This document shows positions 23,528-39,779 of a DNA stretch of 64,000 nt, piece by piece. How positions within the stretch are numbered: position 1 is the first letter of the stretch; every line of letters starts with the position of its first letter. This DNA is from Asaia krungthepensis NRIC 0535 (GTDB lineage: Bacteria; Pseudomonadota; Alphaproteobacteria; Acetobacterales; Acetobacteraceae). The notes below the pieces were generated by a model. That model did no database searches, had not been told where the DNA came from, and saw nothing but the letters and a program-made list of their open reading frames with translations. Both the position numbers and the translations under genes were made by a program. Location: the NCBI RefSeq assembly GCF_025995175.1, contig NZ_BAPV01000001.1, positions 1 to 64,000 on the forward strand, in the 5' to 3' direction.

Positions 23528-25707
23528 GCTTTCTTCTCCCCGGTCGGGTTCATGGCCAGTTGAGGCGCAAAGGGGATACGGCGCAGGCGTCGGCCGGTGG
23601 CCGCGAAGATTGCGTTGGCCAGAACCGGAGCCGCTGCCACCGTGCCGACCTCTCCGATACCGCCAATCTCGGCGTCCGGGTCCGAGACAAGGTGAACGCG
23701 GATATCGGGGGCCTCATTGAGCCGCATCATGCGATAATTATGGAAGTTGCTCTGTTCTGCCTGACCGTTGCGGAAGGTGATTTCGTTATAGAGCGCCATG
23801 GTCAGACCGAAGATCAATCCGCCCTGAATCTGCGCGCGCACCGCATCGGGGAAAACCACGGGGCCGCAATCGACAGCGGTATCGGCCCTTATGAGACGGA
23901 TCTCGCCGCCGCCCCCGACCTCGACTTCCAGCACTGTCGCGGCCCAGCACTGGAAGGAATAATGCAGGGCAATGCCCAGCCCGTGACCCTTCGGGAGGGG
24001 ACGCCCCCACCCCGCCTGACGGGCGGCCTCATCAAGCACCTTGAGCCCGCGCGGCGAATGGGTCAGGTGGCGCCTGCGGAAACTGAGCGGGTCGGTGCCG
24101 CTGGCATGAGCGAGTTCGTCGATCATGCCTTCAACGACGAAGACGTTATGGGTCGGCCCGACACCGCGCCACCACAGGGTGGTTATCCCCTCCGGTTCGC
24201 ATTGCACGGCCTCGTTTCTCTGGGAGGGGATGGCATAGGGCGTTTCCGTCGCGCCCTCTACAGCATCGGAATCGAGTCCGTTCTGCAAACCTTCCGGCGC
24301 CCAGCGCGCCAGAACGAAAGACCCGGTCGTGCGATGGTGCCAGGCCTTGATCAGCCCCTTGTCATCAAGGCCCGCCGTGATGCGATCGTAGTAGAAAGGA
24401 CGGAACTGGTCCTGACGGATATCCTCTTCACGGGTCCAGAACAGCTTGACCGGGAATGGCACCTGTTTCGCCAGACGCGCGGCCTGACCGATGGAATTGG
24501 AATCCAGCCTGCGACCGAAGCCGCCACCAATCAGGTGGTTATGCACGGTGATCCGTTCTGGCGGGAGCCCGGTCGCATCCGCCACCTCCTGCCGTGCACG
24601 GAGAGGGACCTGTGTACCGACCCACACATCGGCGGAGTCGGAGCGGATATGGAGCGTGGTATTGATCGGTTCCAGCGCGGCATGAGCAAGGAACGGCGAT
24701 TCGTAGATTGCGTCGATCCGGACCGGGGAGGAGGCCAGAGCCGCTGTGACGTCGCCCGTATTTTTCGCGACGATACCGGTTTTTTCCGATGCGCTGCGTA
24801 AAGCCTGGAGTTGAGTGGCGCTCGACATGCCCGAATGGGGGCCGTAATCCCACTCGGGCCTCGCAGCTTTCATGCCTGAAATAGCCGCCCAGCTATGATC
24901 GCCAATCACGGCGATGGCGTCGGGAAGCGTCACGATATCGGTCACACCGGGCGTTTTAAGGGCGGCCTCCCTGTCGAAGCCCTTGAGCCTGCCCCCCTTG
25001 ACCGGACATGCCATGATCCGGCCCGTTTTCATGCCCTCAACGCGCACGTCCATGCCGAAACATGCGGTGCCATTGCTCTTCGCATGGGTATCCATGCGTT
25101 GGGGGCTGGTGCCGATCAGCTGGAATTGTGACGGATTTTTCAGGGGGACGGGGTCGGGTATCTTCTGATGGGCAGCATCGTCTGCCAGCGCGCCGTAATC
25201 GAGACGCCGGCTTGACTCAGGATGCAGGACCGCGCCATCGCGGGCCACACAGGTGCTTGCAGGCACTGACCAGCGCGTACTGGCTGCCTGAATGAGCATG
25301 ATGCGCGCGGCTGCTCCTGCCTGACGCAGAGGCACCCAGCTGTCCCGCGTCGAGGCCGAGCCGCCTGTCACCTCCTCACCCGCTGACTTGTCGATATAGC
25401 TGGCATTGGCTGGCGCTGCCTCGAGCCTGACCTTGTCGAGCGACACCTCAAGCTCCTCGGCGAGCAGCATGGCAATGCCGGTATAGATACCCTGACCCAT
25501 CTCCACGTGACGCATGATGAAAGTGATCGCGCCGTTCCGGTCGATCCGGATGAAGGCGTTAGGCGTGAAAGCGCTGCCGCTCTGTGCGCGTGCACCCGGG
25601 AGACCGGGGATCATGCCTGACAACATGAGACCGCCGCCTGTCGCGAGTGCAGCGCGCAATATGGCCCGACGGCTGAGGACCGGGTTGATATCATGGGGTT
25701 TACGCAT
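23524..25707 (-). CDS. Molybdopterin large subunit of aldehyde dehydrogenase / isoquinoline 1-oxidoreductase family
   Basis: The 727-residue catalytic subunit belongs to the xanthine-oxidase family. It starts with a twin-arginine signal ([10 protein letters not shown], then a hydrophobic stretch), so it is exported folded with its cofactor. Blocks seen are [56 protein letters not shown] and the C-terminal [12 protein letters not shown], which holds the expected catalytic Glu. The ATG at 25705-25707 is preferred to one at 25782 because it starts the Tat signal; it overlaps the 2Fe-2S gene by 8 bp. Substrate could be acetaldehyde or an N-heterocycle; with this cytochrome partner, an AldFGH-like aldehyde dehydrogenase is more likely. 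Confidence 0.9.
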
Positions 25708-26155
25708 TGCTGGCAGCCTTGTGGATTGCCGCGCGCACGCGCACATAAGTCCCGCAGCGACAGATATTGCCTGACATGGCATCGTCTATATCGTCATCGC
25801 TGGGTGAGGGTGTGGTCTGGAGCAGTGCGGCCGCCGCCATGATCTGTCCCGACTGGCAATATCCGCACTGAATGACCTGCTCGTCGAGCCATGCCGCCTG
25901 TACACGCTGTCCTGTTTCCGTCTGCCCGATGGCCTCGATTGTCGTGACCGGACGCGTACCGATAAGCGAGACGGGCAACTGGCACGCCCTCGCGGGTTTG
26001 CCGTCAACATGCACGGTGCAGGCACCGCATTGTGCAATGCCACAGCCATATTTCGTCCCAGTCAGTCCGAGAACATCCCGCAATACCCAAAGAAGCGGCA
26101 TGTCATCCGGGACATCGACGTCATGCGATTCACCATTGATAAGAATCGTTCTCAT
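25700..26155 (-). CDS. 2Fe-2S small subunit of the molybdenum dehydrogenase
   Basis: The 151-residue protein carries two 2Fe-2S clusters: a plant-type site in [18 protein letters not shown] (C38, C43, C46 with C58) and the second in [10 protein letters not shown] with the later NICRCGT. This is the standard small subunit of xanthine-oxidase-family hydroxylases such as IorA or AldG. It moves electrons from the Mo site to the cytochrome subunit. There is no signal peptide, so it should be carried out by the Tat signal of the large subunit. It is first in the three-gene operon and divergent from the bc1 genes. Confidence 0.93.
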
Positions 26156-26323
26156 GTCGCTGTTATCTTTCGGTTTTTCGGCTGCGGGTCACCGTGGCAG
26201 ATTCATCGGTGTCGCCGTCTAATGCAAGGCTGTAATTCATATATGGAGAAAACCGGTTGTTTTGATGTTGACACGTTTTTGTGGCCCCGGGATGATCGTC
26301 AGATCCTATTTCAGCAGGACTTC
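26156..26323. promoter_or_regulatory. Divergent promoter region of the Mo-dehydrogenase and bc1 operons
   Basis: This 168-bp gap must drive both operons. A TTGACA occurs at 26267-26272 on the plus strand but no good -10 follows at 16-18 bp. The run around 26225-26265 is AT-rich. No clear operator was found. Confidence 0.35.
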
Positions 26324-26980
26324 ATGACGCAGGACGCAGACCGCCCCACTCCCTTGCCCTCCTGTCCGGTACCCGGGGGAGGGACGAGGCGACGGGATGT
26401 GCTGTCGACGGTAATTGTCGGAGCGGGATGCGCAGGAGCCTGCGCCCTGGCCTATCCTTTTCTCGACAGTCTGAACGGCACAAAAAATACCGAGCTCGGC
26501 GAAGATGACTTGATCGACGTCGATATCTCCACGCTCCGGCCCGGCCAGCAGCTTGTTGTGACATGGCGCGGCTGGCCTGTATTTATACAGAGACGCACAC
26601 CCGAAATGCTCGCTTCGCTCAGAATGGTCGATATTACGCAGCGTTTGCGCGACCCGGACTCGAAAATCCTGCAACAGCCCAGAGATGCCGTGAACTGGCA
26701 TCGCTCGGTCGTGCCGGAAATCGGGGTTCTGATTGGTATCTGCACCCATCTTGGCTGCGTGCCGTCCTATGCAACGCCCTCGCCCAATGATCGGTCGGGC
26801 AAATATTCCTGCCCCTGCCACGGATCGCAATTCGACGTGGCGGGTCGCGTCTTCAAGGATGCGCCGGCCCCCTATAATCTGCCTGTGCCGCCCGTTACCA
26901 TGCTGTCTGCAACGCATGTGCGTATCGGCCAGAGCAAGGGGGACCCCGATTTTTCCATCGCCTCCATCCAGCAGATCTGA
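26324..26980 (+). CDS. petA: Rieske iron-sulfur subunit of cytochrome bc1
   Basis: The 218-residue subunit carries a twin-arginine motif (TRRRDVLS) and transmembrane anchor (about 27-47), then the Rieske fold. Cluster ligands are in CTHLGC (C140, H142) and CPCHGS (C163, H166), with C145 and C165 as the stabilising disulfide. It takes an electron from ubiquinol at the Qo site and passes it to cytochrome c1. The ATG at 26324 gives the usual length and has AGGAC just upstream; earlier in-frame starts add unlike sequence. The cytochrome b gene follows after 9 bp. Confidence 0.94.
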   Translation: MTQDADRPTPLPSCPVPGGGTRRRDVLSTVIVGAGCAGACALAYPFLDSLNGTKNTELGEDDLIDVDISTLRPGQQLVVTWRGWPVFIQRRTPEMLASLRMVDITQRLRDPDSKILQQPRDAVNWHRSVVPEIGVLIGICTHLGCVPSYATPSPNDRSGKYSCPCHGSQFDVAGRVFKDAPAPYNLPVPPVTMLSATHVRIGQSKGDPDFSIASIQQI

Positions 26981-26989
26981 GCGGCGACC

Positions 26990-28189
26990 ATGAATGAACC
27001 CAATACTCCCCCGACGGGCTGGCTGGAAACACGTCTGCCCATCGTCTCGGCATTTCGCCGCGAATATGTCGATTTCGCCATGCCCCGCAATCTGTCCTAT
27101 CTGTGGAATTTCGGGGCGTTCGCAACGATCGCGCTCGGATTGCTGATCGTCAGCGGTATTTTTCTCGCCCTGAATTACACACCGAGTCCAACCGAGGCAT
27201 TCAGCAGCATCGAAACAATCGACCGTCATGTCGCCTCTGGCTGGCTTGTGCGCGCTATCCATATGGGCGGCGTCTCAATGCTGTTTGTCGCACTTTACGT
27301 GCATATGGCGCGCAGCCTCTATTATGGATCCTACAAGGCGCCACGCGAACTGCTCTGGCTGACAGGGCTAGGACTCTTCATACTGGTCATGATTGCAGCC
27401 TTTGCCGGGTATATTCTCCCCTGGGGGCAGATGTCGTACTGGGGCGCCACCGTGGTCATCAATGCCCTGAACGCGGTACCGCTGATCGGGCCGTCCCTTG
27501 CCTCATGGCTGCTTGGTGGCGAGGGTCTGGGTTCTGTCGCGCTGCACCGCATTTACGTCCTGCATTTTGTCACCGCGTTTTCGATTATCGGTGTCATCGT
27601 TCTGCATGTGGCCGCTCTGCATGTCACGGGCTCGAACAATCCCACCGGCATTGAGCCGAAAACAGCAGAGGACGTGGTGCCCTTTCACCCGTATTACACC
27701 ACCAAGGACGGTCTCGGTCTTTGCCTCTTTCTGATGGTCTACGCGGCACTGATTTTCTTCGCTCCCGACCTTCTGACGCTCGCCAATAATTACGCCATGG
27801 CCAATCCGCTGGTCACACCCGGTGACATCACGCCTGAGTGGTATTTCGCTCCCTTTTACGCCATTCTACGCGCTGTACCGTCCAAGCTGGGCGGCCTCCT
27901 GCTGTCGGCAGGCAGTCTGGCGGTCCTTTTTGCTGTGCCATGGCTCGACCGGTCGCCCATCCGTTCAGCGCGTTACCGCCCTGTTCTGCGCTGGGCTCTG
28001 CTGGGCCTTTTTCTCGCTTTCATAGCGCTTGGCGTTGCGGGTATGCATAAACCGACCGGGTTCTGGCTCGGCGTCAGCCGTCTCGGCGTGATTTACTACT
28101 ATCTCTATTTTCTGGTTTTGCTGCCTTTCCTGCCACGCGTGGAAATTCCGCGCTCCCTGCCTGCCACATTGCGCGGAGAGGGCGCATGA
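26990..28189 (+). CDS. petB: Cytochrome b subunit of the bc1 complex
   Basis: The 399-residue membrane protein is a full-length cytochrome b with eight or so transmembrane helices. The haem-binding His pairs lie in RAIHMGGVSMLFVALYVHM and HRIYVLHF...VLHVAALH, and the Qo-site PEWY motif is present (ITPEWYFAPFYAI). GYILPWGQMSYWGATV is the conserved cd1-loop region. It oxidises ubiquinol and recycles electrons through two b haems. It overlaps the cytochrome c1 gene by 4 bp. Confidence 0.95.
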   Translation: MNEPNTPPTGWLETRLPIVSAFRREYVDFAMPRNLSYLWNFGAFATIALGLLIVSGIFLALNYTPSPTEAFSSIETIDRHVASGWLVRAIHMGGVSMLFVALYVHMARSLYYGSYKAPRELLWLTGLGLFILVMIAAFAGYILPWGQMSYWGATVVINALNAVPLIGPSLASWLLGGEGLGSVALHRIYVLHFVTAFSIIGVIVLHVAALHVTGSNNPTGIEPKTAEDVVPFHPYYTTKDGLGLCLFLMVYAALIFFAPDLLTLANNYAMANPLVTPGDITPEWYFAPFYAILRAVPSKLGGLLLSAGSLAVLFAVPWLDRSPIRSARYRPVLRWALLGLFLAFIALGVAGMHKPTGFWLGVSRLGVIYYYLYFLVLLPFLPRVEIPRSLPATLRGEGA

Positions 28190-28899
28190 AGCGCATTTTC
28201 TTTCCGGCATTCTTGGCTTTTCTCGCGACAGGTATCTGCAAGAATGCTGCCCTCGCGGATACTCCCCAGCAGCGTGGGTTTCAGGTCTATCGTCAGGTAT
28301 GCAGCACCTGCCACAGCCTCGATCAGGTGCGCTTTGCCGATCTTTCAGGGATCGGCCTGTCGGTTGCGGATATCAAGGCTTATGCCGCGAGCCGTCAGGT
28401 TCCTGACGGCGTGGATGATGACGGCGATCCCAAAACCCGACCGGCCCATCTCTCAGATCTCATCGGCTCTCCTTATCCGAATGAGGCCATGGCCCGCATG
28501 GCCAATCATGGGGATTTACCCCCTGATTTTTCCCGCCTTGCCATGACGGAGGAGGGCGGGGCCGCCCGGATAGAAACTATCCTGCGCAGCTATGCGCCCA
28601 AGCCGGCCGATCTTGTTCTGCCGCCAGGCTCTTATTACAATACAGCCTTCGCCCAGAACCATATCGGCATGCCGCCGCCTCTGCATGACGGTCAGGTCAA
28701 ATATGTCGATGGAACAGCGGCGACGCTGCCGCAGATGGCTCAGGATGTGAGTGCCTATCTGGACTGGGTTGCGCATCCGCATTCAATGGAACGGACCCAT
28801 ATAGGACTGGGTGTTCTGGCCTATCTGGCGGTATTGACCGTCCTTCTGGCAATCATGAAACGGCGCGTCTGGAAGCGTGTGAAGGGAACGGGATCATGA
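28186..28899 (+). CDS. petC: Cytochrome c1 subunit of the bc1 complex
   Basis: The 237-residue subunit has a signal peptide (cleavage near ALAD), haem site CSTCH (39-43), the c1 signature DLPPDFSRLAMTEEGGAARI-type stretch, an axial Met in HIGMPPPLHDG and a C-terminal membrane anchor (about 203-224) followed by basic residues. It passes electrons from the Rieske protein to soluble cytochrome c. It overlaps both neighbours by 4 bp, so it is coupled to cytochrome b and to the redoxin gene that follows. Confidence 0.94.
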   Translation: MKRIFFPAFLAFLATGICKNAALADTPQQRGFQVYRQVCSTCHSLDQVRFADLSGIGLSVADIKAYAASRQVPDGVDDDGDPKTRPAHLSDLIGSPYPNEAMARMANHGDLPPDFSRLAMTEEGGAARIETILRSYAPKPADLVLPPGSYYNTAFAQNHIGMPPPLHDGQVKYVDGTAATLPQMAQDVSAYLDWVAHPHSMERTHIGLGVLAYLAVLTVLLAIMKRRVWKRVKGTGS

Positions 28900-29501
28900 G
28901 CGAGACCACAACCCTGCTTTATATGCAGGTCATGATATGGGTGATTGTGCTAGGTCTTTGCGCGGTCCTGGTCATGATGGTGCGTCGTGTCAGAGGGTTT
29001 TATCGCCGCATCGCTCCCCTGGGGGCGCTTGCCCCAAGCGGGAGCGCGATCGACCATCTTCCGGCAACAACGCTGCCGACGCTGGCCGGTCAGAAGGTGA
29101 CGCTGGGTGGCACCCGAGCTGATGGCGGCTCTCAGCTTCTGGTTTTCGTCTCCGGTGCCTGCCCGGTTTCCCGCAAGATGGTGCCGATCGTCGATGAATT
29201 TGCGCGGCGTGAAGGGCTTGCCCTGACCTATTGCGGCGATGAAACGAAGGACATGGCGCTGCCCATGCTGGCCACTCTGGGATTGGCCGCGTCACGTTTC
29301 GTGAATGATGCCGCTATCGGGCGTCTTCTGGGCGTGGACAGGGTGCCTTTCGCCGTGCTGCTGGACGAACAGGGCAGGGTGCAGGCGCGCGGGCTGGTCA
29401 ATAATCTTGAGCATCTGGAGAGTCTGCTTGGTGTGCAGGAAACGGGATATCGCTCGCTTCAGGGCTTCATGACGGCCCATCCCCAGGCTCTTGCCGGGTA
29501 G
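28896..29501 (+). CDS. MauD-like membrane-anchored redoxin in the bc1 operon, active-site CPVS
   Basis: The 201-residue protein has one N-terminal transmembrane helix (about 9-29) and a periplasmic thioredoxin/peroxiredoxin-like domain resembling MauD (LVFVSGACPVSRKMVPIVDEF). MauD is thought to help form the disulfides of the amine dehydrogenase light chain. In this copy the motif is CPVS: the resolving Cys is replaced by Ser, unlike the second MauD encoded at 31185 (CPVC). It is the last gene of the bc1 operon (4-bp overlap) and converges on the amine dehydrogenase operon. It may serve as a one-Cys reductase or isomerase, or in maturation of cytochromes; unproven. Confidence 0.8.
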   Translation: MSETTTLLYMQVMIWVIVLGLCAVLVMMVRRVRGFYRRIAPLGALAPSGSAIDHLPATTLPTLAGQKVTLGGTRADGGSQLLVFVSGACPVSRKMVPIVDEFARREGLALTYCGDETKDMALPMLATLGLAASRFVNDAAIGRLLGVDRVPFAVLLDEQGRVQARGLVNNLEHLESLLGVQETGYRSLQGFMTAHPQALAG

Positions 29502-29513
29502 GATAACGCCCAC

Positions 29514-29541
29514 CGGTCAGGCTTCCACACCGGTCTGACCG
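29514..29541. terminator. Inverted repeat between the convergent bc1 and amine dehydrogenase operons
   Basis: CGGTCAG and CTGACCG pair around a 14-nt loop 12 bp after the redoxin stop. No T-run follows; weak terminator candidate. The rest of the gap to 29680 shows nothing I recognise. Confidence 0.3.
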
Positions 29542-29680
29542 CGCTGGCCGTCGCCCGAGGTCGGTGCCCTGTTGCAGCATCATGCCACGACACGGGACAA
29601 TGCTTTCTCAGCGCCCCGATTTCTCAAGACACATAAGGCGGATACTGCCGGGCAGTGCCTTTGTCTTGACGAAGGCGGAC

Positions 29681-30139
29681 TCAGTGCGGGCAGGCCGCAC
29701 GTGCGCGACTGAGGACCTCTGCCCTGAGAGCCATGAGATCGTCGGTCTGGAGCGGTTTGGCGCGCAACACATGTACCTCCTGCGCTGTGAACGGCTTCGT
29801 CCCTTGCGGTGTACTGATGCCCCCCAAGCGGAAAAGTACGAAATTGAGTACATCCGCCAGTTCCTGATCATCGCGTATCAGAGACATGGAAATGCCGGGC
29901 ACACGGACCAGATAATCGCGTCCTTCGGGCGAGCAGGCGAACCAGCCGACCTGATCGCGCAATGTCGGAACGAATGTCTTGCCGGAAATGCCCTCGATGC
30001 CGTGGCAGCCACCGCAATGGGTCAGATAATTCGTGACCGTATGAGACTGGATCGCCGCCCGGGCAGGACCCGGGAAGGCGACGCCCAGCAGGGCGAGGGC
30101 CGCTGCAAGGCAGAAATCAGGGAAGCGGATGCGCGTCAT
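29681..30139 (-). CDS. Monohaem cytochrome c, last gene of the amine dehydrogenase operon
   Basis: The 152-residue protein has a signal peptide (cleavage near ARAA) and one haem site CGGCH, with a possible axial Met in GISMSLIRDD. It is a small periplasmic class I-type cytochrome c with a long C-terminal extension containing more Cys (RAACPH). It overlaps the next cytochrome gene by 23 bp. Together they probably carry electrons away from the amine dehydrogenase. No close relative is named because the similarity outside the haem region is not distinctive to me. Confidence 0.85.
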   Translation of the reverse strand: MTRIRFPDFCLAAALALLGVAFPGPARAAIQSHTVTNYLTHCGGCHGIEGISGKTFVPTLRDQVGWFACSPEGRDYLVRVPGISMSLIRDDQELADVLNFVLFRLGGISTPQGTKPFTAQEVHVLRAKPLQTDDLMALRAEVLSRARAACPH

Positions 30140-30581
30140 TCAGAGCCTTTCTCTCCGCAAGGATTTCCTTGGCTTTCTTGGGCGTGGCACGCGCGGCCTT
30201 GACCTCGTCAGCCCTAAAGGCGGGAGCGCCAGGCGTGTCGATGCTGCTGATATAGGTCAGGACAGCAGCAAGCTGATCATCGGTAAGAGCCTTGAATGAG
30301 GGCATGAACCCCATATAACTCGAGCCAGCGGCATCGATGGTGCCATGGACACCGTTAAGCAGCACGTCGGCCACATAGGTCTTGCCCTCGGCTGTAGCCG
30401 CGATCTTGCCGATGCGCCCGGCAAGGGGGGGAAACTGCCCCGGCGATCCTGCGCCTGCCGCCTGATGGCATACGCTGCAATTGCTGTTGTAGACGGCCTG
30501 CCCATCTTCGGCATGGGCCGTGGATGCTATGAGAGCGGGCAGAACCAGAAGCCCTGCCAGAGGAAGAAAGCGTCTGGTCAT
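30117..30581 (-). CDS. Monohaem periplasmic cytochrome c, likely amine dehydrogenase electron acceptor
   Basis: The 154-residue protein has a signal peptide (cleavage near AHAE), haem site CSVCH and a likely axial Met in YMGFMP, the pattern of class I cytochromes c. A charged C-terminal tail (VKAARATPKKAKEILAERK) follows the fold. It starts in a 4-bp overlap with the light-subunit gene. In known clusters a cytochrome or copper protein next to the light subunit accepts electrons from the TTQ cofactor; I infer that role here. No amicyanin/azurin gene is visible. Confidence 0.87.
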   Translation of the reverse strand: MTRRFLPLAGLLVLPALIASTAHAEDGQAVYNSNCSVCHQAAGAGSPGQFPPLAGRIGKIAATAEGKTYVADVLLNGVHGTIDAAGSSYMGFMPSFKALTDDQLAAVLTYISSIDTPGAPAFRADEVKAARATPKKAKEILAERKALNDAHPLP

Positions 30582-31198
30582 GAGGCATTCCCGACGATGA
30601 CGGATGTTGAGCAGTTATAGACGAGCGCACCTGTGCCGAAGCACCAGATGATGTCGTTATTCGCCTGAGGGCGATAGCTGGGCTGGTCGCCATCCGTGCC
30701 CAGGCATGGCGGCTGGCTGCAGGCGTCCTGACCGCAGCAATCGCGATAGGCCACGAGGTAGGACTGCCCGTCCTGCGGGTTGAAGCATGTGCCGATCCAC
30801 GAGGTGGGGGAAGGGCGTGTCCCCGGTGGGCAGCTATGGACGCCACCGCCGCATGAAGCGCACAGGAACCCATCGATGGCGCAGTAGCGCCAGTAATCGC
30901 AGGCTGTTGGATCGGTTGTCTGTGCTTTTGCGGCAAAGGGTGAGGGAGCCTTGACGTGCGACTGCGCGGCAGGGGCGGCCTTACCGGTGCCGGGTGGGGT
31001 CGCTGCCGAGGCACGCTCGACTGGCAGGAGCGGAACAAGCGCGCCGAAAGTGGCCCAGGCCCCCAGACGGCCGAGCACGCTTCGGCGTGAGCTGTAGCTG
31101 GCGACATGCCGGATCAGCCGTTCTGTAATTCGGTCGAGAGGGCTGGACGGGGCACCGTCCTGGATCGCGCGGCCCGAAATCAGCTCAGACTGCGTCAT
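30578..31198 (-). CDS. mauA: Amine dehydrogenase light (beta) subunit with TTQ cofactor
   Basis: The 206-residue precursor has a twin-arginine signal (SSRRSVLGRLG) and a Cys-rich mature part matching methylamine/aromatic amine dehydrogenase light chains: CDYWRYCAIDG, CPPGT, TSWIGTC, AYRDCCG and NDIIWCFG. By alignment with the Paracoccus denitrificans subunit (W57, W108, D32, D76), the two Trp that crosslink into tryptophan tryptophylquinone are W134 and W185, and the conserved acids are D109 and D153. Many Cys form disulfides, needing MauD/MauE. It oxidises primary amines to aldehyde and ammonia in the periplasm. The symbol follows the methylamine system; aromatic amine dehydrogenase (aauA) is equally possible. 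Confidence 0.94.
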   Translation of the reverse strand: MTQSELISGRAIQDGAPSSPLDRITERLIRHVASYSSRRSVLGRLGAWATFGALVPLLPVERASAATPPGTGKAAPAAQSHVKAPSPFAAKAQTTDPTACDYWRYCAIDGFLCASCGGGVHSCPPGTRPSPTSWIGTCFNPQDGQSYLVAYRDCCGQDACSQPPCLGTDGDQPSYRPQANNDIIWCFGTGALVYNCSTSVIVGNAS

Positions 31199-31784
31199 GG
31201 AGGAACTCCTTGGTCTCTGGCGAGGATGAAGAGGAAGCAGGAAGCGTCGCGATCAGCGCTTCGACCTGCTGTCGGGTATTGGCGACATCACGCGCGGTGA
31301 TCACGCCATCCGGGTTGAGGGTCACGAGGGTGGGAAGCCTGCCTATCTGAAGCAGGAGAAGCAGTTCCTGGCTGGTGACGAAGGGCGTCGCCCCAAGCCT
31401 GATGGTTGAGGCCATGGCGTGCAGGGCGGTGACATCCCCTTCGCCTGCGAGGACGAGATCGAGATCGTGGATCGCGGCCTGGGCCTGCACGATGGGGAGC
31501 ACGCGCTTGCAGACCGGGCAATCGGGCGAGACGAACAAGATCAGACTCGACCGCCCACGGTCATGACGTCCGCCCATGGAAAATCGCGTATCGTCCAGCG
31601 TCCGGGCAGTGACGCGCGGCAGGGCCTGGCCGGCCTGCAGTCCGGCAAGAACAGGCTGCTGCCCGATCGGGGCAATACGCTCGTGCAAGACGCCGATCTG
31701 ACGGGCGAGAACGAGGACGGCAAGCGTGAGAACGCAGCATAATGCGGCGAGCAGTAACGTCGAGATCAGCAATAGCGTCATCAT
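31185..31784 (-). CDS. mauD: MauD, thioredoxin-like disulfide factor for amine dehydrogenase
   Basis: The 199-residue protein has an N-terminal transmembrane helix (about 3-25) and a periplasmic redoxin domain with the CPVC active site in LFVSPDCPVCKRVLPIV. MauD and MauE are needed for correct disulfide formation in the light subunit; without them the subunit is degraded in known systems. The tandem ATGs at 31784/31781 fall in the 4-bp overlap with mauE, and the gene end overlaps mauA by 14 bp. A longer upstream frame is not used because it lies wholly inside mauE. Confidence 0.9.
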   Translation of the reverse strand: MMTLLLISTLLLAALCCVLTLAVLVLARQIGVLHERIAPIGQQPVLAGLQAGQALPRVTARTLDDTRFSMGGRHDRGRSSLILFVSPDCPVCKRVLPIVQAQAAIHDLDLVLAGEGDVTALHAMASTIRLGATPFVTSQELLLLLQIGRLPTLVTLNPDGVITARDVANTRQQVEALIATLPASSSSSPETKEFLHDAV

Positions 31785-32302
31785 GCGGCGTCTCCTGCAT
31801 TGCGAAGCTGGAGAAAGGCGAGGGTGAGCAGGATCAAGCTGATGCCGCCCATGAGTGTCGCGAGGGAGAGCAGGGTCCCGTCCGGGCGGCCGGTTTCGGC
31901 AGCTCCCAGCATCAGGACAGCCAGCATGATCGTCCGGAGAACGGCTCCGCGTGAGAGGGGCATATCCTGCCCCGGCAGGCAACCGCAGGAGAGGCCAGTG
32001 CGACCGCGCGCGACGTTGATCCCCATCGCAAGGGCAAAAGCCGTCAGCAGGATTGCGGCTGTGAGACAGGCTTCACGAGGAAACATGCCGGAACACAGCC
32101 ACGCTCCCAGAACGAGCTGCACACCGGTCAGAACCCGGGCCACAGGAAAGGCCATCCCGAGCGGAAAGAGCCTGTAGGCAGCAATGAGCGATGCAAAGCC
32201 GGACTGGTCCAGGGCTTTGGACAGGGCTGTCCCGATGAACAGCGCCCCCATTGCGTTCACGCCAACCGCGCCGATCATCTGCAGAGCGAGCGTGCTCATC
32301 AA
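31781..32302 (-). CDS. mauE: MauE, membrane protein for amine dehydrogenase maturation
   Basis: The 173-residue protein has four to five hydrophobic helices (about 6-24, 47-68, 76-95, 118-136, 145-164) and a CGCLPG loop between helices, which fits the MauE/DoxX-like fold. MauE works with MauD in light-chain disulfide formation at the inner membrane. It overlaps mauD and the large-subunit gene by 4 bp each, part of an unbroken chain of overlaps from 33.5 kb to 29.7 kb. Confidence 0.88.
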   Translation of the reverse strand: MMSTLALQMIGAVGVNAMGALFIGTALSKALDQSGFASLIAAYRLFPLGMAFPVARVLTGVQLVLGAWLCSGMFPREACLTAAILLTAFALAMGINVARGRTGLSCGCLPGQDMPLSRGAVLRTIMLAVLMLGAAETGRPDGTLLSLATLMGGISLILLTLAFLQLRNAGDAA

Positions 32303-33492
32303 TCCCCCAGAGCGGTCGTGAAATACAGATCGTCGCCAAGATGCTTCATGGTATGGGCGATCTTCCCGGTCTTCAGATCCCAGATGAAGAAATCACCCGC
32401 CTCATCATTGGTGAACAGCTGGGGAGAGGCGTCCTGTGTGACGCCGACCATAGAACTCGGCCTGGGGAGCTTGATCCGGCGGAGCAGCTTGTGCTTTGCC
32501 ACATCCAGCTCCCAGATTTCCGTGCCCGATACCTTGTGGGTCCAGAACGTGCCCTGATGCATGGCCACGTAAAGACGGCCGCTCGCATGATGCATCGCTG
32601 CCAACTGCCATCCACCGGGGCGCCATGTGACCGTGAACGGGCTGTCCGCATTGGTCGCGGCTTTCATGCCTGCGGCTTCCTGTATCGACCATGGCTTGTC
32701 GATCGTGGTGGTAGCCGACAGGGTCGCCGGGTAGACAAGGCCGCTATAGGAAATGAACCAGGTCTTGCCATCGGCACTGCGAGACGGGCTATGTTCGAAG
32801 ACCGCATCCTTTTCAGGGTCGAAAAAGGGTTTGGTATGGGTGATATCGGCTTTCTCAGCGCCAATGCTGACATTGGCCAGGCTGCCATCGGCGCAGATCG
32901 AGGTGAACCCGTCCTTGCCCCAGGGATAGGTCAGCGCACAGCCGGGAAGACCGACATTCATCGCGACCTTGTGCGTGGTCGTATCGACGACATGAACCGC
33001 GTTGGTTGGCACCATGTCATACACGTAGATCCTGCTGCCATCGCTGCTGATCGTCAGATCGTTCTTTTTGGGCGTGACGAGGGCGCGGCCAGGCAGAACC
33101 TCATCATTCGTGATTTCGAGGGTTTGCGGGTCGTAAGTGGCGAGAAGGTCCGCCCGGTCGCCACGATTGCCGCGCGACCAGACGGTTTCGGCAACGTAAA
33201 AGGCACGACCCTTGGGGTCCTGAACGACATTGCCGTTATAGGCCGCCTGAACCATGCCCAGCAGCTTGCCCTGATCGGCATCGACCACGTAGACGCGGCC
33301 GTCCTTCGCATGATGCCCTACCGGGTCCTGAACCAGAATACGGTGAGGCGTCACAGGAGAGAGCTTGATGATGTCGCTCTCTTCCGTTTGCAGTACCGGC
33401 TCATCCGCAAGGGCCATGCCGCAGGGTGCCAGTGCCGCGCCAGCCAGCAGGAACGCCGTCATGCCGGCCAGTTTTCGGGAGGTGAGACGCAT
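32299..33492 (-). CDS. mauB: Amine dehydrogenase large (alpha) subunit
   Basis: The 397-residue exported subunit forms a seven-bladed beta-propeller that packs against the light chain in an alpha2-beta2 enzyme. After a signal peptide (cleavage near ALAD) it shows repeated propeller strings such as VYVVDADQGKLLGMVQAAY, RAFYVAETVWSRGNRGDRAD and the C-terminal FIWDLKTGKIAH. The YNGNV / ETVWSRG / DLL wording is specific to methylamine and aromatic amine dehydrogenases. The ATG at 33490-33492 begins the signal peptide; an upstream in-frame start would run into the receptor gene. First catalytic gene of the operon. Confidence 0.93.
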   Translation of the reverse strand: MRLTSRKLAGMTAFLLAGAALAPCGMALADEPVLQTEESDIIKLSPVTPHRILVQDPVGHHAKDGRVYVVDADQGKLLGMVQAAYNGNVVQDPKGRAFYVAETVWSRGNRGDRADLLATYDPQTLEITNDEVLPGRALVTPKKNDLTISSDGSRIYVYDMVPTNAVHVVDTTTHKVAMNVGLPGCALTYPWGKDGFTSICADGSLANVSIGAEKADITHTKPFFDPEKDAVFEHSPSRSADGKTWFISYSGLVYPATLSATTTIDKPWSIQEAAGMKAATNADSPFTVTWRPGGWQLAAMHHASGRLYVAMHQGTFWTHKVSGTEIWELDVAKHKLLRRIKLPRPSSMVGVTQDASPQLFTNDEAGDFFIWDLKTGKIAHTMKHLGDDLYFTTALGD

Positions 33493-33601
33493 TGGAGATC
33501 GGTCCTTGCGGAGAAGCGGAGACAGGGTTGAAAGGCACGCGAAACGCGATGGTGAGGGGAGTGATCCAGAGGCGACCCCGCCGGAGCCGCCCGTCCATAG
33601 G

Positions 33602-36031
33602 TCAGAACTCGGTACTGACAGTTCCGAAGAACTGCTTGGGAGATCCGCGTTCGAGAGACTGGTAATCACCGGATATCGGGTTGCCGTTCTCTCCCATCAT
33701 CGAGATATATTTGGAATTCAGAAGATTATAGACGTTGAAGTCGATCGTGATGTTTTTGGCGAAGCCGTAATTGCCCACATTGTATCTGGCCCCCGCACTG
33801 GTGAGCCAGTAGCCCGGCACTGAGGTATCATTCGTATAGCTGAAATACCGTTTTGAATAGTAATGGACGTCGAAATGCGTTTCGAGTCCCTTCCAGCGAT
33901 AGGACAGATTCGCTTTGTACATGAACTGAGGATAGTTCACGACCTTCTTGCCTTTGGTGAAATAGACACCATCGGCGGTGGTGATGTTCCCCCCATAGGT
34001 CGAATGATTGTAACTGACGCTGTTGTACAGGGCGAGGCCCTTGATGGGCGTCAGCGTTACGGCGGCATCCACTCCATTCGTATGGACGCTGGTCTGGGCC
34101 ACGCTCGATACGGGGTTTGTGATTGTGCCTTCCGTCGCTGCCTGCAAGCGATGATTGGCATCGGCGTGATACCCTGCGAGGCTCGCCTGCACATATTTGT
34201 CGGTGTAGCGATATCCGACGGCATAAACCCAGTCGCGCTCGGGTTTGACGGTCTGACGAAGTTGCTGGAACGTGGCCTGGTCCTGCACTGACCACAGCGC
34301 GTTACCCACGCCGTTGGGGAGCACCTGATAGCTGCGCATGTTCTCGGCGAGATCGAAGTAGAATTCGTGATGCGGCAGAAAATGCCAGCTGCCGCCGACA
34401 TGAGGCAGGAACGCCGAGGAGGCGGTCATGCTGCCATTAGGGAGGGCATCGGCGCCGGTATAATCCGGATTATTGTAATTCGCCCCGCCAGCCGTGGTCG
34501 ACAGCATCGATTTGAATCCGGCCGTCAGACGCAGATTATCGAGCGGGCGCCACGTATCCTCGAGATGATAGGTGAAGGTGTTGGTATGCCAGACAAATCC
34601 GTAGCCCTGCAGGAAAGCCGGACCGTAAGTGTCGTAGGGCCCGACTGTCTTGAGCGGCGAACCCGTTCCGAGGAGCGGTTCGTTGTACCAGAACAGATCG
34701 GCCTGCTGGTTGTTGTTTTCGAACCAGACTCCCGTGTCGATCGTATGCCTGGCGATCCGGTAATTCAGAGCTGTTGTGAATCCGTAACGTTCCTGCCGGG
34801 TCTGCCAGACTTCCTCGGAAAAGGGAGCCCCTGTGCCCGCCGACGGTGTGCTGTAATCGGAATAGGTGTAGTAGCCCGTCTGGCTGGTGCCATAGAGCGT
34901 GGATTTCCAGCGCAGATGATCGGTGAGGGCCAGATCCATGTTGAGGCCACCGGTGTAATCCACCTCGGCCTGACCGCCGTCATAGAGATAGGGCTCATCA
35001 CCATTGGCGATAATGGCGTCCGAAGTGGGCAGGGAAACCGCACCTGAGGCATAGGCCGTCGCCAGAGCGTAATTCGGATAGAGATGCGGCACCCGCCATC
35101 CCAGCGTGTTCAGCATGGCCAGCGACGTATCCTGATAGCCCCATTCCTGAAGATCGCTCCAGTTGAAGAAAGCCTTGATCACACTGTCATGGCCGACAGG
35201 CTGAACGACTTTAGCGTCGACCTGCTGCTGGAACTGGGTGCCCCCACCCATCCATTTACCTTCCTCGCTGCGCGAATAGGCCACGAAGGCCTTCGTGCCA
35301 CTCGGGTTGAGCACACCCGAATCCCCGCGAATATAGGTGCGGTAGGAGCTGTACGTGCCGAAGCCCTGTGAAATCTTGCCCCCCATTTTATCCTTGGGGT
35401 CCGTCGTTTCGAATTCCAGCGTTCCCCCCAGCGTGGAGGTTGAGGGGACATTGACCCCGCCCGGCCCTTCGGAGAGCACCGAGCGTTCGATATCGTCGGA
35501 AATCGATGCCTGGATGACATTCAGGCCATTATTGCTTTCATAGGTCTGGTCGTTCAGCGGAATGCCATCCAGTGTCACGCCGAGCTGATCCATGAAAAAG
35601 CCGCGCACATAGATGCTCGATCCCCAGGTATCGATGCCGAGAGGATCCGTGGAACTGAAGCTCACACCGGGCAGACGATCGACAGCCTTGAGGACGCTGG
35701 TTCCCGGGGTGAACTGTGCCATGACGGCTTTGGAAATCACGTTGTCCGCGCCGCGTGAGGCAACGCGGCTGGCACTGATCGTCATGGTCTCGTTACCTCC
35801 TGAGCGGGAGGCACGCGCCGGATTGCGTTTTCCGGGAGATGTGCGGGGCGAGGCGGGGTGCGCCCGATGGGAAGAAATCTTTTGGCCGTAATGCGCAGCA
35901 CCCTGAGGAGCGGCAACACCGGGACGCGGGAAAACGGCCAGAAGCGCCGAAGCACAGAGCAGGATGCGAAGGGAGACGGGCTGACCGCAACATCGCGAAC
36001 CAAATCGGGTGGGGCGGGTTATTTTGACCAT
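33602..36031 (-). CDS. TonB-dependent receptor upstream of the amine dehydrogenase operon
   Basis: The 809-residue receptor has a signal sequence (hydrophobic core about 19-36), a basic linker, a plug (about 85-205: TPGTSVLKAVDRLPGVSF, SIYVRGFFMDQLGVTLDG, SDDIERSVLSEGPGGVNVPS) and a barrel ending in F. The final barrel strings (FNVYNLLNSKYIS) are standard. It lies 109 bp before the large-subunit gene on the same strand and no terminator is evident between them, so it may be co-transcribed. It might import an amine-bearing substrate or a metal needed by the pathway; the substrate is not evident. Confidence 0.9.
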   Translation of the reverse strand: MVKITRPTRFGSRCCGQPVSLRILLCASALLAVFPRPGVAAPQGAAHYGQKISSHRAHPASPRTSPGKRNPARASRSGGNETMTISASRVASRGADNVISKAVMAQFTPGTSVLKAVDRLPGVSFSSTDPLGIDTWGSSIYVRGFFMDQLGVTLDGIPLNDQTYESNNGLNVIQASISDDIERSVLSEGPGGVNVPSTSTLGGTLEFETTDPKDKMGGKISQGFGTYSSYRTYIRGDSGVLNPSGTKAFVAYSRSEEGKWMGGGTQFQQQVDAKVVQPVGHDSVIKAFFNWSDLQEWGYQDTSLAMLNTLGWRVPHLYPNYALATAYASGAVSLPTSDAIIANGDEPYLYDGGQAEVDYTGGLNMDLALTDHLRWKSTLYGTSQTGYYTYSDYSTPSAGTGAPFSEEVWQTRQERYGFTTALNYRIARHTIDTGVWFENNNQQADLFWYNEPLLGTGSPLKTVGPYDTYGPAFLQGYGFVWHTNTFTYHLEDTWRPLDNLRLTAGFKSMLSTTAGGANYNNPDYTGADALPNGSMTASSAFLPHVGGSWHFLPHHEFYFDLAENMRSYQVLPNGVGNALWSVQDQATFQQLRQTVKPERDWVYAVGYRYTDKYVQASLAGYHADANHRLQAATEGTITNPVSSVAQTSVHTNGVDAAVTLTPIKGLALYNSVSYNHSTYGGNITTADGVYFTKGKKVVNYPQFMYKANLSYRWKGLETHFDVHYYSKRYFSYTNDTSVPGYWLTSAGARYNVGNYGFAKNITIDFNVYNLLNSKYISMMGENGNPISGDYQSLERGSPKQFFGTVSTEF

Positions 36032-36295: not shown

Positions 36296-37717
36296 TCATG
36301 CAGGGGCTGATCGGGGTGAATTCTGTGCGGCCCATTGCGTGAGGAAATCGAAAACTTCGGGCCTGTCGCAATGGGTTATGTTGAACCTCAGCCACGGCGA
36401 CGGCGTGCTGTCGGGCGAAAAATACCCCCCGGGAGCGAGGAGGAGATTGGCGCGCGCCGCATCGCGGGTAAGTTGATGCACATCGCGATCCTGGGCGAAT
36501 CGCATCCACAGGAACATACCGCCATCTGGTTTGCAGAACGGTGTCAGCCCGCTGCGCGCAAAGCGCCTGAGCGTTCTGGCTTGCAGGAGGGAAAGCTTTT
36601 CCCGGAGCCGTGCAAGATGCAGGCGATAACGGCCATCGGCGAGAATGTGATGCACGATTGCTTCGGAGATATGGGCGCTCGTAAGGCTGCTTGCCATTTT
36701 GAGCTTGAGGATATGACGCGCCGTCGCGGCACCGGTGGCGACATATCCCACACGCAATCCGGGCGATATGGTTTTTGAGAAACTGCTGATCCGGATGACA
36801 TGATCGAGCTGGCCCAGATAGGCCAGCGTCGGGCTGGTATCGGGTGCCAGATCGCCAAAGATATCATCCTCGATCAACAGGATTCCATGGGCCTCGGCGA
36901 TGCGGAGTAATTTATGCAGGACAGGCGCCGAGCAGGAAGTCCCGGTCGGATTATGGAGCCGCGTGTTGAGCACGAAGGCTTTCGGCTGTTTTTCGCGCAA
37001 CAATCTCTCGAAGCTTTCGAGGCAGGGACCGTCTTTCAGCCGGGGAACCCCATGAAGCGTCAGGCCCAGCGCCCTCAGAGCAGGAAAGAGATTGCAGTAG
37101 CCAGGATCCTCCACAAGAATGGTATCTCCGGGGCGGGTCAGGCTGCGAATTGAGAGTTCCAGAGCCTGACTGGCTCCATGGGTGAGAATTATTCCGCTGC
37201 GCGGGCAGTTTATTCCCTGACGCGCAAGGCTGAGTGCGATTTGTTCGCGCAGCCCGTCATGACCATAGGGATTGCCATAACCCATACCCGGTATGTCTGC
37301 GTGGCGGCCCAGGCTGTTGAGCGCCTGACGAATGCCCGAGCCCATAAGGCAGGGTTCCGGCAGCCAGCCGCAACCTGCCTGGATTGTCCGGGCGTCGCCC
37401 TCATAGGCACGCTGTAACAGCCATAATGAATCGACTGAAGGAAGAGGGCTCACTGCCTCCTTCCGGGTCTCTTCCACACGCGGTTCATGGGTGACGAAAT
37501 AGCCACTGGCGCGACGGGCCTGTAAGAGCCCTTCTGCGACGAGCCGGTTATACGCATTCGAGACGGTGAGGGGGCTAGTGGCACTTTGCGTCGCTAATTT
37601 TCTGATGGAGGGCAGTTTCGTGCCATCCGGCCATGTGCCTCCTAGAATGCGTTCGCGTATCTGATCGACAATCTGCGCGACAAGTGGCTGCGCTGAGGCG
37701 TGGTCGAGCCTGATCAT
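36296..37717 (-). CDS. MocR-type regulator (GntR winged helix fused to class I aminotransferase domain)
   Basis: The 473-residue protein has an N-terminal GntR DNA-binding domain (about 1-75: PLVAQIVDQIRERILGGTWP, KLPSIRKLATQSATSPLTVS) joined to a fold-type I PLP domain with ILTHGASQALELSIRSL, ILVEDPGYCN, LIEDDIFGDL and the PLP-lysine string SFSKTISPGLRVGY. MocR proteins such as GabR, PdxR and TauR sense PLP plus an amine/amino acid and control divergent genes. Here the divergent operon at 37946 encodes an aminotransferase pathway, a classic layout. The ATG at 37715-37717 starts the wHTH; a longer frame is not supported. Confidence 0.92.
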   Translation of the reverse strand: MIRLDHASAQPLVAQIVDQIRERILGGTWPDGTKLPSIRKLATQSATSPLTVSNAYNRLVAEGLLQARRASGYFVTHEPRVEETRKEAVSPLPSVDSLWLLQRAYEGDARTIQAGCGWLPEPCLMGSGIRQALNSLGRHADIPGMGYGNPYGHDGLREQIALSLARQGINCPRSGIILTHGASQALELSIRSLTRPGDTILVEDPGYCNLFPALRALGLTLHGVPRLKDGPCLESFERLLREKQPKAFVLNTRLHNPTGTSCSAPVLHKLLRIAEAHGILLIEDDIFGDLAPDTSPTLAYLGQLDHVIRISSFSKTISPGLRVGYVATGAATARHILKLKMASSLTSAHISEAIVHHILADGRYRLHLARLREKLSLLQARTLRRFARSGLTPFCKPDGGMFLWMRFAQDRDVHQLTRDAARANLLLAPGGYFSPDSTPSPWLRFNITHCDRPEVFDFLTQWAAQNSPRSAPA

Positions 37718-37945
37718 CAAACGTCGCTTCCGTCTGAAAAATGCCGGGGGTATTTCGGCAGGGACTACAAAATCTCTCTGACAGCCCGGGAGTGTATCGC
37801 TCCGTGCAGCAATACGGATCCGTTTGGCCAGAACCGAACTGTATATAGACAACGTCATTTCGCAATTGGAATAGTGTGGGCATCACGGAATTCTCGCATG
37901 ACGGCTTTGGCTTGCCGAAGCGTCGCGACACAGGAAAGCCGCATC
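37718..37945. promoter_or_regulatory. Divergent control region of the MocR regulator and the amine catabolic operon
   Basis: This 228-bp gap is the expected MocR binding site. It contains an AT-rich core TGTATATAGACAAC (about 37840-37853) and a nearby GCAATTGGAATAG. I could not identify the direct repeats that such regulators normally bind with certainty. Confidence 0.4.
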
Positions 37946-39298
37946 ATGGGATCCTCTCCCTCGGAATTCGACCCGGCGCGCAGCCTGGCCACGGGCACGT
38001 ACTGGATGCCGTTCACGGCCAATCGGCGCGTCAGGAAAGACCCGCAATCGCGCCTTATTGTTTCGGCCAAAGGCAGTTACTGCCACACGCAGGATGGCAG
38101 TGCGCTGTTCGATACTCTCTCGGGCCTGTGGTGCACGCCGCTCGGTCACGGCCATCCACGGATTGTGGCAGCCCTGCAGGAACAGGCGCAGACGCTGGAT
38201 TACTGTACGGGGTTCCAGATGACCAACCCGGCGACAGTCCGGCTGGCCGACCGGATCGCTGCCCTGGCGCCCGAGGAGCTCGATCATGTGTTCTTCACCA
38301 ATTCCGGGTCGGAAGCGGTCGATACGGCACTCAAGATCGCGCTGGGCTATCATCGTCTGCGCGGCGAGGCTGGCAGGTTCCGTATGATCGGGCGCGAGCG
38401 GGGCTATCACGGTGTTGGTTTCGGTGGCTTGTCCGTCGGGGGGATTGTTCCCAACCGCAAGATGTTCGCTGCAGGAATGCTCAATGGCGTTGACCATTTG
38501 CGGCACACCCACGATCCGGCCGGGGCTGCCTTTTCGCGGGGACAGCCAGCGGAAGGGGCCGACAGGGCCGATGATCTGGAGAGGCTCGTGGGCCTTCACG
38601 ATGCCGGCACGATCGGCGCGGTGATTGTCGAGCCCGTGCAGGGATCGACCGGTGTCATCGTGCCGCCGCTCGGTTATCTGCACCGCCTGCGCGACATCTG
38701 CACAAGGCACGGCATCCTGCTGATTTTCGATGAGGTGATCACGGGATTCGGTCGTCTTGGCGCCCCCTTTGCTGCCCAGCGCTTCGGCGTTGTGCCGGAC
38801 ATGATCACCTTTGCCAAAGCCGTGACCAATGGTGTCGTGCCGATGGGAGGTGTGCTGGTTCGCCATGATATTTATGAGACGTTCATGACCGGTCCGGAAA
38901 ACGCCATCGAGTTTGCTCATGGCTATACCTATTCCGGTCATCCTCTCGCCGCGGCAGTAGGCAATGCCGTGCTCGATATCGTCGAGGATGAGGATCTCTT
39001 TACGCGTGCTCTTTCTCTGGAGCCGGTGCTGGAGGAGGCAGTGCATCATCTGGATCGCGCACCGGGTATCCTCGATATCCGCAATATCGGTCTTGCGGCG
39101 GCCATCGACATTGAGCCTGATCCTCGCGCCCCCGGCGCGCGGGGTCTGGAGATTTTTGATCTGGGGTTGAAGAACAATCTGCTCCTGCGATGCACAGGCG
39201 ACACGGTCTCGCTTGCCCCTCCGTTCATCTCAACGCCTCAGGAACTGCGCGACATGGTCGGCATTCTGGGGCGTCTGATCGCGACAGTCACACGCTGA
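37946..39298 (+). CDS. Class III omega-aminotransferase (beta-alanine/diamine:pyruvate type)
   Basis: The 450-residue PLP enzyme transfers an amino group from an omega-amino acid or amine to pyruvate. Its sequence follows the beta-alanine:pyruvate family: TYWMPFTANRR near the start, FFTNSGSEAVDTALK, RERGYHGVGFGGLSVGG, EPVQGSTGVIVPP, FDEVITGFGR (D262) and the PLP-lysine K291 in FAKAVTNGVVPMG. The ATG at 37946 follows AGGAAA and homology starts there. It leads a rightward operon whose later genes (permease, aldehyde dehydrogenase, FAD oxidoreductase) can import the amine and oxidise the resulting semialdehyde. Confidence 0.93.
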   Translation: MGSSPSEFDPARSLATGTYWMPFTANRRVRKDPQSRLIVSAKGSYCHTQDGSALFDTLSGLWCTPLGHGHPRIVAALQEQAQTLDYCTGFQMTNPATVRLADRIAALAPEELDHVFFTNSGSEAVDTALKIALGYHRLRGEAGRFRMIGRERGYHGVGFGGLSVGGIVPNRKMFAAGMLNGVDHLRHTHDPAGAAFSRGQPAEGADRADDLERLVGLHDAGTIGAVIVEPVQGSTGVIVPPLGYLHRLRDICTRHGILLIFDEVITGFGRLGAPFAAQRFGVVPDMITFAKAVTNGVVPMGGVLVRHDIYETFMTGPENAIEFAHGYTYSGHPLAAAVGNAVLDIVEDEDLFTRALSLEPVLEEAVHHLDRAPGILDIRNIGLAAAIDIEPDPRAPGARGLEIFDLGLKNNLLLRCTGDTVSLAPPFISTPQELRDMVGILGRLIATVTR

Positions 39299-39335
39299 TC
39301 TTCCTGCACGCTGTTCATTTATCAAGGAATTCGTC

Positions 39336-39743
39336 ATGCCACTGCTCCATTTTCACCTGATCGAAGGACGCTCCCCGGGCCAGATCAGGGAATTGCTGGA
39401 TTCGGCGCACGAGGCGATGCTCGAGGCCTTTGAGGTTCCGCGCAGAGATCGTTATCAAATTGTAACGGAACACAAGCCGTCTCATCTGATCATGGAAGAT
39501 ACCGGTCTGGATATTCCACGCACGAAATCCATGATTCTCGTGCAGATGTTCAGTCGCCCCCGTGGAGAGCAGGCTGTCGAGCATTTTTATCGTCTGCTCA
39601 CAGCGCGTCTCGAGAGGGATTGTGGCATCCTCCCATCCGATGTCATGATTTCAGTGGTTGAAAACGGGGATGCCCACTGGTCGTTCGGCTTCGGTCGAGC
39701 CCAGTTTCTGACCGGAGAGCTCCCGCTTCCGGTAGAAGTCTGA
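39336..39743 (+). CDS. Tautomerase-superfamily protein
   Basis: The 135-residue protein has Pro as its second residue (MPLLHFHLIEGR); after Met removal this becomes the N-terminal Pro that acts as the catalytic base in 4-oxalocrotonate tautomerase and its long-chain relatives. Later blocks (RYQIVTEHKPSHLIMEDTGL, ENGDAHWSFGFGRAQFLTGE) match the longer 4-OT/MSAD-like tautomerase proteins. It sits between the aminotransferase and the permease gene, so it could isomerise an unsaturated or enolic intermediate of the pathway; its exact substrate is unknown. Confidence 0.85.
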   Translation: MPLLHFHLIEGRSPGQIRELLDSAHEAMLEAFEVPRRDRYQIVTEHKPSHLIMEDTGLDIPRTKSMILVQMFSRPRGEQAVEHFYRLLTARLERDCGILPSDVMISVVENGDAHWSFGFGRAQFLTGELPLPVEV

Positions 39744-39779
39744 CCGAATCCGGAACATTCCGGACATGAAGGATCGTGC

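Follow-up and report, generated by a model that had tools for sequence, protein, structure and literature searches.

How is the cofactor of a tryptophan tryptophylquinone (TTQ) amine dehydrogenase finished when no MauG is encoded beside the enzyme? In these enzymes the cofactor is built from two of the protein's own tryptophans, and MauG is the textbook finishing enzyme. We address this question at an amine dehydrogenase cluster of Asaia krungthepensis NRIC 0535, analyzed in a window of 64,000 nucleotides (contig NZ_BAPV01000001.1, positions 1 to 64,000). The cluster very probably encodes a MauG-independent, aau-type TTQ enzyme, in which TTQ would be formed without a dedicated MauG. Taken as a whole, the best explanation of the locus, to which we assign a probability of about 0.5, is a MauG-independent, aau-like amine dehydrogenase with the small cytochrome cycB as the leading oxidant candidate; the assignment of the finishing step to cycB itself is tentative.

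The absence of MauG is not in itself new, because the aau cluster of Alcaligenes faecalis was reportedly described in 2001 as lacking mauF, G, L, M, and N and as having a monoheme cytochrome. To our knowledge, how TTQ gets finished without MauG has been open since that description. A search of the open-license PubMed Central (PMC) literature returned no paper evidently on MauG-less TTQ biogenesis, the spread of such clusters (acetic acid bacteria included), the loop loss or role of cycB, or a nested position of MauG. In the present sample, linked MauG is the exception, genomes with no MauG-superfamily match are found, and one small linked heme protein can be named. If cycB is indeed the oxidant, a single-heme protein does chemistry now ascribed to a special two-heme state.

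Gene content of the Asaia cluster

Six open reading frames (ORFs) form a leftward chain at 29681-33669, each overlapping the next by a few bases. The cluster is intact and runs in the order large subunit, MauE, MauD, light subunit, cycA, cycB, with likely starts at 33492 for the large subunit and 31784 for MauD:

32299..33492, minus strand: large (alpha) subunit, beta-propeller; start shifted from ORF 32299-33669
31781..32302, minus strand: MauE membrane accessory protein
31185..31784, minus strand: MauD, disulfide accessory protein with CPVC; start shifted from the long ORF 31185-31982
30578..31198, minus strand: light (beta) subunit with the TTQ tryptophans W134 and W185
30117..30581, minus strand: cycA, monoheme cytochrome c (CSVCH); distal Met kept; probable electron carrier
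29681..30139, minus strand: cycB, monoheme cytochrome c (CGGCH), Thermus c552-like; distal loop and distal Met position gone; candidate for completing TTQ

Family matches and ORF overlaps agree on this chain of overlapping genes, as the initial annotation had described it. The wider span drawn there (28896-36031) is retained in part: the leftward chain stands, and neither the plus-strand MauD-like gene behind the bc1 operon (28896-29501) nor the TonB-dependent receptor (33602-36031) is a member. The proposed host, an acetic acid bacterium, is borne out by the light chain, which shares 99% identity with its counterparts in Asaia platycodi and A. siamensis, and W134 and W185 are both present.

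The light subunit matches Pfam Me-amine-dh_L at E 6e-50 and, with 202.9 bits, exceeds the equivalog cutoff of NCBIfam TTQ_MADH_Lt (196.85). In phmmer comparisons with solved structures, the mature light chain matches both methylamine dehydrogenase (9.6e-42) and aromatic amine dehydrogenase (7.7e-38). The large subunit and MauE exceed their Pfam cutoffs; in NCBIfam the large subunit reaches 173.9 bits, below the equivalog cutoff of 454.45, and the MauD ORF has MauD as its top match at 111.5 bits, below the cutoff of 188.6.

Queries with MauF, MauJ, MauG, MauM, MauN, and amicyanin of Paracoccus denitrificans gave no match under E 0.1 in the window, and the same queries recovered every annotated counterpart in two control clusters; the absence of MauG, MauM, MauN, and MauJ from the window, noted at the outset, is thereby confirmed. 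Across the whole genome, the PF03150 profile (MauG superfamily) finds two complete genes, one on contig C57 and one on C61; neither is linked to the cluster, which lies on contig C1. A search of the genome for MauF, run with no control genome, returned no match.

Distribution of cycB and MauG among light-chain loci

Light-chain matches occur in 36/397 genomes of the family (G122, which is broken, among them) and in 13/398 genomes of the phylum, namely the Asaia genome itself, G122, a short partial match in G659, and ten others; the genome survey excludes G122, for its internal stops, and G659. Our comparison covers 170 light chains; they come from 166 loci, of which 59 are family, 12 phylum, 80 named-genome, and 15 plasmid records. 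Among 168 light domains, 127 are distinct. Because the same genome may occur twice, under a survey handle and as a named contig, counts are also given at <88% identity. Both TTQ columns hold W in 168/168 aligned light domains, and in the 2 of 170 light chains that missed the script motif W was seen by eye. Nine of 12 cysteine columns and the Asp preceding the CC pair are invariant across 56 nonredundant rows.

A cycB-type cytochrome lies directly downstream, with no linked MauG, in 156 of the 170 light chains; six have MauG/MauF/MauJ and no cycB, eight have neither, and none has both. At <88% identity (n = 58), the corresponding counts are 52, 2, 4, and 0. The initial annotation had proposed that TTQ is built here without a linked MauG and had implied that this is exceptional. 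The first part is supported; the second is not, this being the common state of the family in the sample. Searches of the 151 MauG-less genome loci, most of them 16-20 kb long, with MauG of two types, MauF, MauJ, MauM, MauN, and amicyanin gave nothing at E 1e-5.

The eight loci with neither gene are heterogeneous. Frame errors apparently account for L065 and L176, cycB being retained in a relative; the genomes of L069, L073, L076, and L182 each carry a further light chain that does have cycB; cycB is matched in part at L243; and L188 is left. L069, L073, and L076 belong to three genomes of one group (one of them Komagataeibacter swingsii by its contig) with three light chains each, and the third light-chain locus in this group consists of large and light subunits only, with no adjoining cytochrome.

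Unlinked MauG relatives were located by coordinates in 45 cluster-bearing genomes, where the PF03150 gene closest to any light chain is ~13 kb away (G363). Five of the 45 have no PF03150 match: G219, G178 (89% complete), G453, G585, and G654. G453 and G585 are each one contig and 100% complete, and the profile recognizes the three MauG proteins tried, of both types. All five genomes retain large-MauE-MauD-light-cycB, four of them with no cycA in the match list; the G219 cycB stops short, at 131 residues. These genomes make the strongest case that any TTQ formed in them requires no protein of the MauG superfamily. NCBIfam TIGR03791 has matches in 104/385 genomes of the class, none above cutoff, a count of little weight because MauG of P. 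denitrificans itself (L230:10880-12043, solved structure) scores 96.8 bits against the MauG cutoff of 443.85 and is missed by the model. The 14 strong TIGR03791 loci, one per genome, have no TTQ light chain in the fetched stretches.

Plasmid records provide a separate test. Searched against 72,556 of them, the Asaia cycB query matches 15, all among the 31 records that carry a light chain. In each of the 15, less than 1 kb separates cycB from the light chain, and the search for mau accessory genes up to 8 kb away (E 0.01) found none. The other 16 light-chain records include 15 with MauG (13 Paracoccus, 1 Indioceanicola, 1 Methylobacterium). The plasmid tblastn for MauG at E 1e-30 misses the Methylobacterium and Indioceanicola MauG, and the 15 cycB records were therefore read and retested. 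Fifteen of the 31 light-chain records are in the set of 170, and seven more were read as a check. The remaining light-chain record, a Thermomicrobium roseum plasmid (L233) from outside Pseudomonadota, has genes resembling light chains and one for a MauE-like protein of ~600 residues, with neither MauG nor cycB found nearby; its light chain falls under the script threshold and is not counted in the 170.

In a light-chain tree (58 rows, two with MauG, 111 columns) and in a joined light-large tree (56 rows, four with MauG, 483 columns), the MauG clusters make up a single branch nested in the cycB group, with support of 100/100. For the joined tree, 54/56 rows had a paired large subunit and two MauG rows were added. 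There the MauG clusters fall in a group of 11 (99/99) whose other seven members are MauG-less; six of these have cycB. On these trees MauG would be a late arrival, unless the root sits on the MauG branch.

Candidates for the finishing oxidant

In the route that we propose, the large subunit, MauE, MauD, the light subunit, and the cytochromes would yield a periplasmic TTQ amine dehydrogenase. The MauD and MauE families help light-chain disulfides form, and here they would act on the cysteine-rich light chain, after which the two tryptophans would be oxygenated and cross-linked without MauG. The oxidant could be cycB: its c-type heme, if open on the distal face, could take up peroxide or oxygen close to the light chain. 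Electrons from the finished enzyme would leave through cycA.

The features of cycB that suggest this role concern its distal side. Thermus cytochrome c552 is its best match by sequence and structure, C-terminal extension included, and comes first in a fold search whose matches are weak (E 1.8e-3 and worse). The alignment falls into two stretches with the intervening piece missing from cycB, presumably the part that bears the Met ligand in c552. A Pseudomonas aeruginosa cycB query also matches Thermus cytochromes and a few others, which makes cycB a specialized branch of a wider family. The cycB segment has ~24 residues, ~17 fewer than that of cycA, which is 41 residues long in 55/63 sequences and contains Met in 67/68. 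Loop lengths taken by regular expression scatter in cycB (38/127 values are not 23 or 24, many being 44); we prefer the aligned segments, which span all residues between the flanking R and N and have the short form in all but two truncated rows.

No conserved distal Met ligand was found among 98 aligned cycB sequences: the variable distal position most often holds M (21) or H (19), followed by F (12), R (8), Q, G, and L (7 each), and N (6), with other residues in the remainder. The residues around it are nearly fixed (R, P, and N in 97-99%, Y or F in 99%), and two cysteines are gained or lost together (both 63, neither 33, one 2). Outside the signal peptide the AlphaFold model of cycB has high confidence (mean pLDDT 88); because it holds no heme, the open distal face is inferred from the loop loss. 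With the Met-bearing loop deleted, the distal face is probably open, so that peroxide or oxygen could bind. In favor of an oxidant role, the distal Met is lost in cycB beside a cycA that keeps it, and cycB is the one heme protein left in the smallest clusters.

Several observations weigh against this assignment. cycB has one heme and MauG two, and the oxidant role is predicted from the genes. M or H, both possible ligands, occupies the variable position in 40/98 cycB sequences. A few light chains have neither cycB nor MauG, and two Burkholderia cycB records hold a MauG-like gene (35% identity) >1 Mb away. In the Asaia genome a distant oxidant may exist, BthA-like genes tracking the cluster across the family. 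The MauG clusters being one clade, the mutual exclusion of cycB and MauG may reflect one switch, with amicyanin arriving together with MauG. A plain electron-acceptor role for cycB fits the pattern equally well.

That last role is the core of the main alternative, which is credible if somewhat doubtful: cycB would be an electron acceptor only, replaced later by amicyanin in the MauG branch, and TTQ would be finished by an unlinked or nonspecific oxidant or in part by itself. As a cytochrome c, cycB adjoins the dehydrogenase in a place that amicyanin occupies in the five MauG clusters read; some acceptor must be needed, since no cycA was found beside cycB in 89/156 clusters; and one swap on the single MauG branch explains everything. 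This alternative leaves unexplained why cycB has lost the distal Met and loop while the adjacent cycA keeps both. It also sits poorly with the Indioceanicola MauG cluster, which has no amicyanin match in its stretch and no cycB either (though it does have another c-type cytochrome upstream), and with the Alcaligenes enzyme, which uses azurin.

A second alternative places a distant MauG in the Asaia genome itself, as either of the two PF03150 proteins. The C57 gene has three CxxCH motifs and its best Protein Data Bank (PDB) match in 9qdt, a tri-heme peroxidase annotated as a probable cytochrome c peroxidase. The C61 gene has its best PDB match in 6nx0 (BthA), aligns to BthA over 135-410, and carries Y at the column occupied by M in the 6v59 variant, which we take to be the BthA Tyr ligand. 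A mauG elsewhere in the genome, under the same regulation, had been named beforehand as an observation that would refute the proposal; two superfamily genes do lie on other contigs, a weak form of that observation, their nearest known proteins being a tri-heme peroxidase and BthA. In favor of a distant MauG, an excerpt of PMC6405878 describes a MauG-like bis-Fe(IV) state in Burkholderia BthA, to whose presumed Tyr ligand the C61 copy aligns, and BthA-like genes occur in 30/35 cluster-bearing Acetobacteraceae genomes versus 9/45 without the cluster, a real family-wide correlation. The correlation does not hold within Asaia, where all five cluster-less genomes have a BthA-like match (one in pieces), and the gene is missing from 5/35 cluster-bearing Acetobacteraceae genomes. 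The C61 gene adjoins a phosphoesterase; similarly, the same paper reports a putative phosphatase gene upstream of bthA in every case, and it argues that BthA cannot act as a true MauG (PMC6405878). With five cluster genomes devoid of any PF03150 match as well, a distant MauG in the Asaia genome is improbable. As a general answer we reject an unlinked MauG.

That no TTQ is made, the light chain being otherwise modified or inactive, is very improbable: the lack of MauG, MauF, MauJ, MauM, and MauN in the window would fit, and against it stand the invariant tryptophans, the conserved cysteine and Asp columns, the matches to both solved light chains, and a P. aeruginosa plasmid cluster of the same gene order that is annotated as an aralkylamine dehydrogenase.

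Neighboring genes and known systems

The cluster is flanked by a bc1 operon, a second MauD-like gene, and a receptor gene:

26009..26980, plus strand: Rieske subunit, bc1 complex
26990..28189, plus strand: cytochrome b, bc1 complex
28186..28899, plus strand: cytochrome c1, bc1 complex; sole copy found in this Asaia genome
28896..29501, plus strand: second MauD-like protein (CPVS, one Cys), after cytochrome c1 and convergent with the cluster
33602..36031, minus strand: TonB-dependent receptor, upstream of the amine dehydrogenase cluster

Cytochrome c1 is present in 4/4 Asaia genomes with the cluster, as the copy adjoining it, and in 0/5 without. The corresponding counts are 2/2 and 1/3 in the Gluconobacter thailandicus group (g55) and 34/35 and 29/45 across 80 genomes; the link between bc1 and the cluster is clear only in Asaia. 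Both heme-copper oxidases found in the Asaia genome have bo3 quinol oxidases as their best-scoring type (above cutoffs for one set, below for the other), which leaves the bc1 complex with no obvious cytochrome c oxidase partner. The complex may serve the cytochromes of the amine dehydrogenase cluster. Elsewhere among relatives (G042:C3, G378:C102, G337:C4, and others), a high-scoring PF03150 gene, of the type that is tri-heme in the Asaia genome, lies ~4-9 kb from cytochrome c1, hinting at peroxide respiration via bc1.

Combining the trees with this neighborhood yields a historical scenario that we consider rather unlikely: TTQ would first have been made by a monoheme, open-faced cytochrome (cycB) and still be so in most TTQ enzymes; MauG with MauF/J/M/N would be a late replacement on one branch; and in Asaia bc1 could pass quinol electrons to the cycB heme. 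That MauM/MauN pass electrons to MauG, and bc1 likewise to the cycB heme, are guesses.

Other neighbors include an aldehyde-oxidase-like set at 22235-26155 (molybdopterin and 2Fe-2S subunits and a three-heme cytochrome), which could oxidize the aldehyde product of the amine dehydrogenase; genes like it recur beside a number of related clusters. Genes like the MauD-like 28896-29501, with CPVS in place of CPVC, also recur near related clusters. On the other side, at 36296-41108, a MocR-type regulator, a class III aminotransferase, a tautomerase, and an amino acid permease adjoin the cluster.

Among known systems, the BthA di-heme peroxidase resembles the unlinked C61 gene with its phosphoesterase neighbor, which lies outside this cluster. 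A passage in PMC7876137 sets MauG for TTQ beside flavoproteins for cysteine tryptophylquinone (CTQ). With the mau cluster (mauFBEDACJGMN), the Asaia cluster shares large subunit, MauE, MauD, and light subunit in equal order and a light subunit above the equivalog cutoff; it differs in a large subunit below its own cutoff and in lacking MauF, amicyanin, MauJ, MauG, MauM, and MauN, in whose stead it has two cytochromes. Its gene content—large, MauE, MauD, light, and cytochromes, with no linked MauG—is that of the aau type (aauBEDA plus cytochromes). The order large-MauE-MauD-light-cytochrome-cytochrome recurs in two P. aeruginosa plasmid records, with no MauG nearby; in the first of these the second cytochrome aligns with cycB. 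A 100/99 split in the joined tree nevertheless places the Asaia type with methylamine dehydrogenase and the P. aeruginosa one on the opposite side, and the Asaia cluster differs from the aau cluster in its adjoining TonB receptor and bc1 operon.

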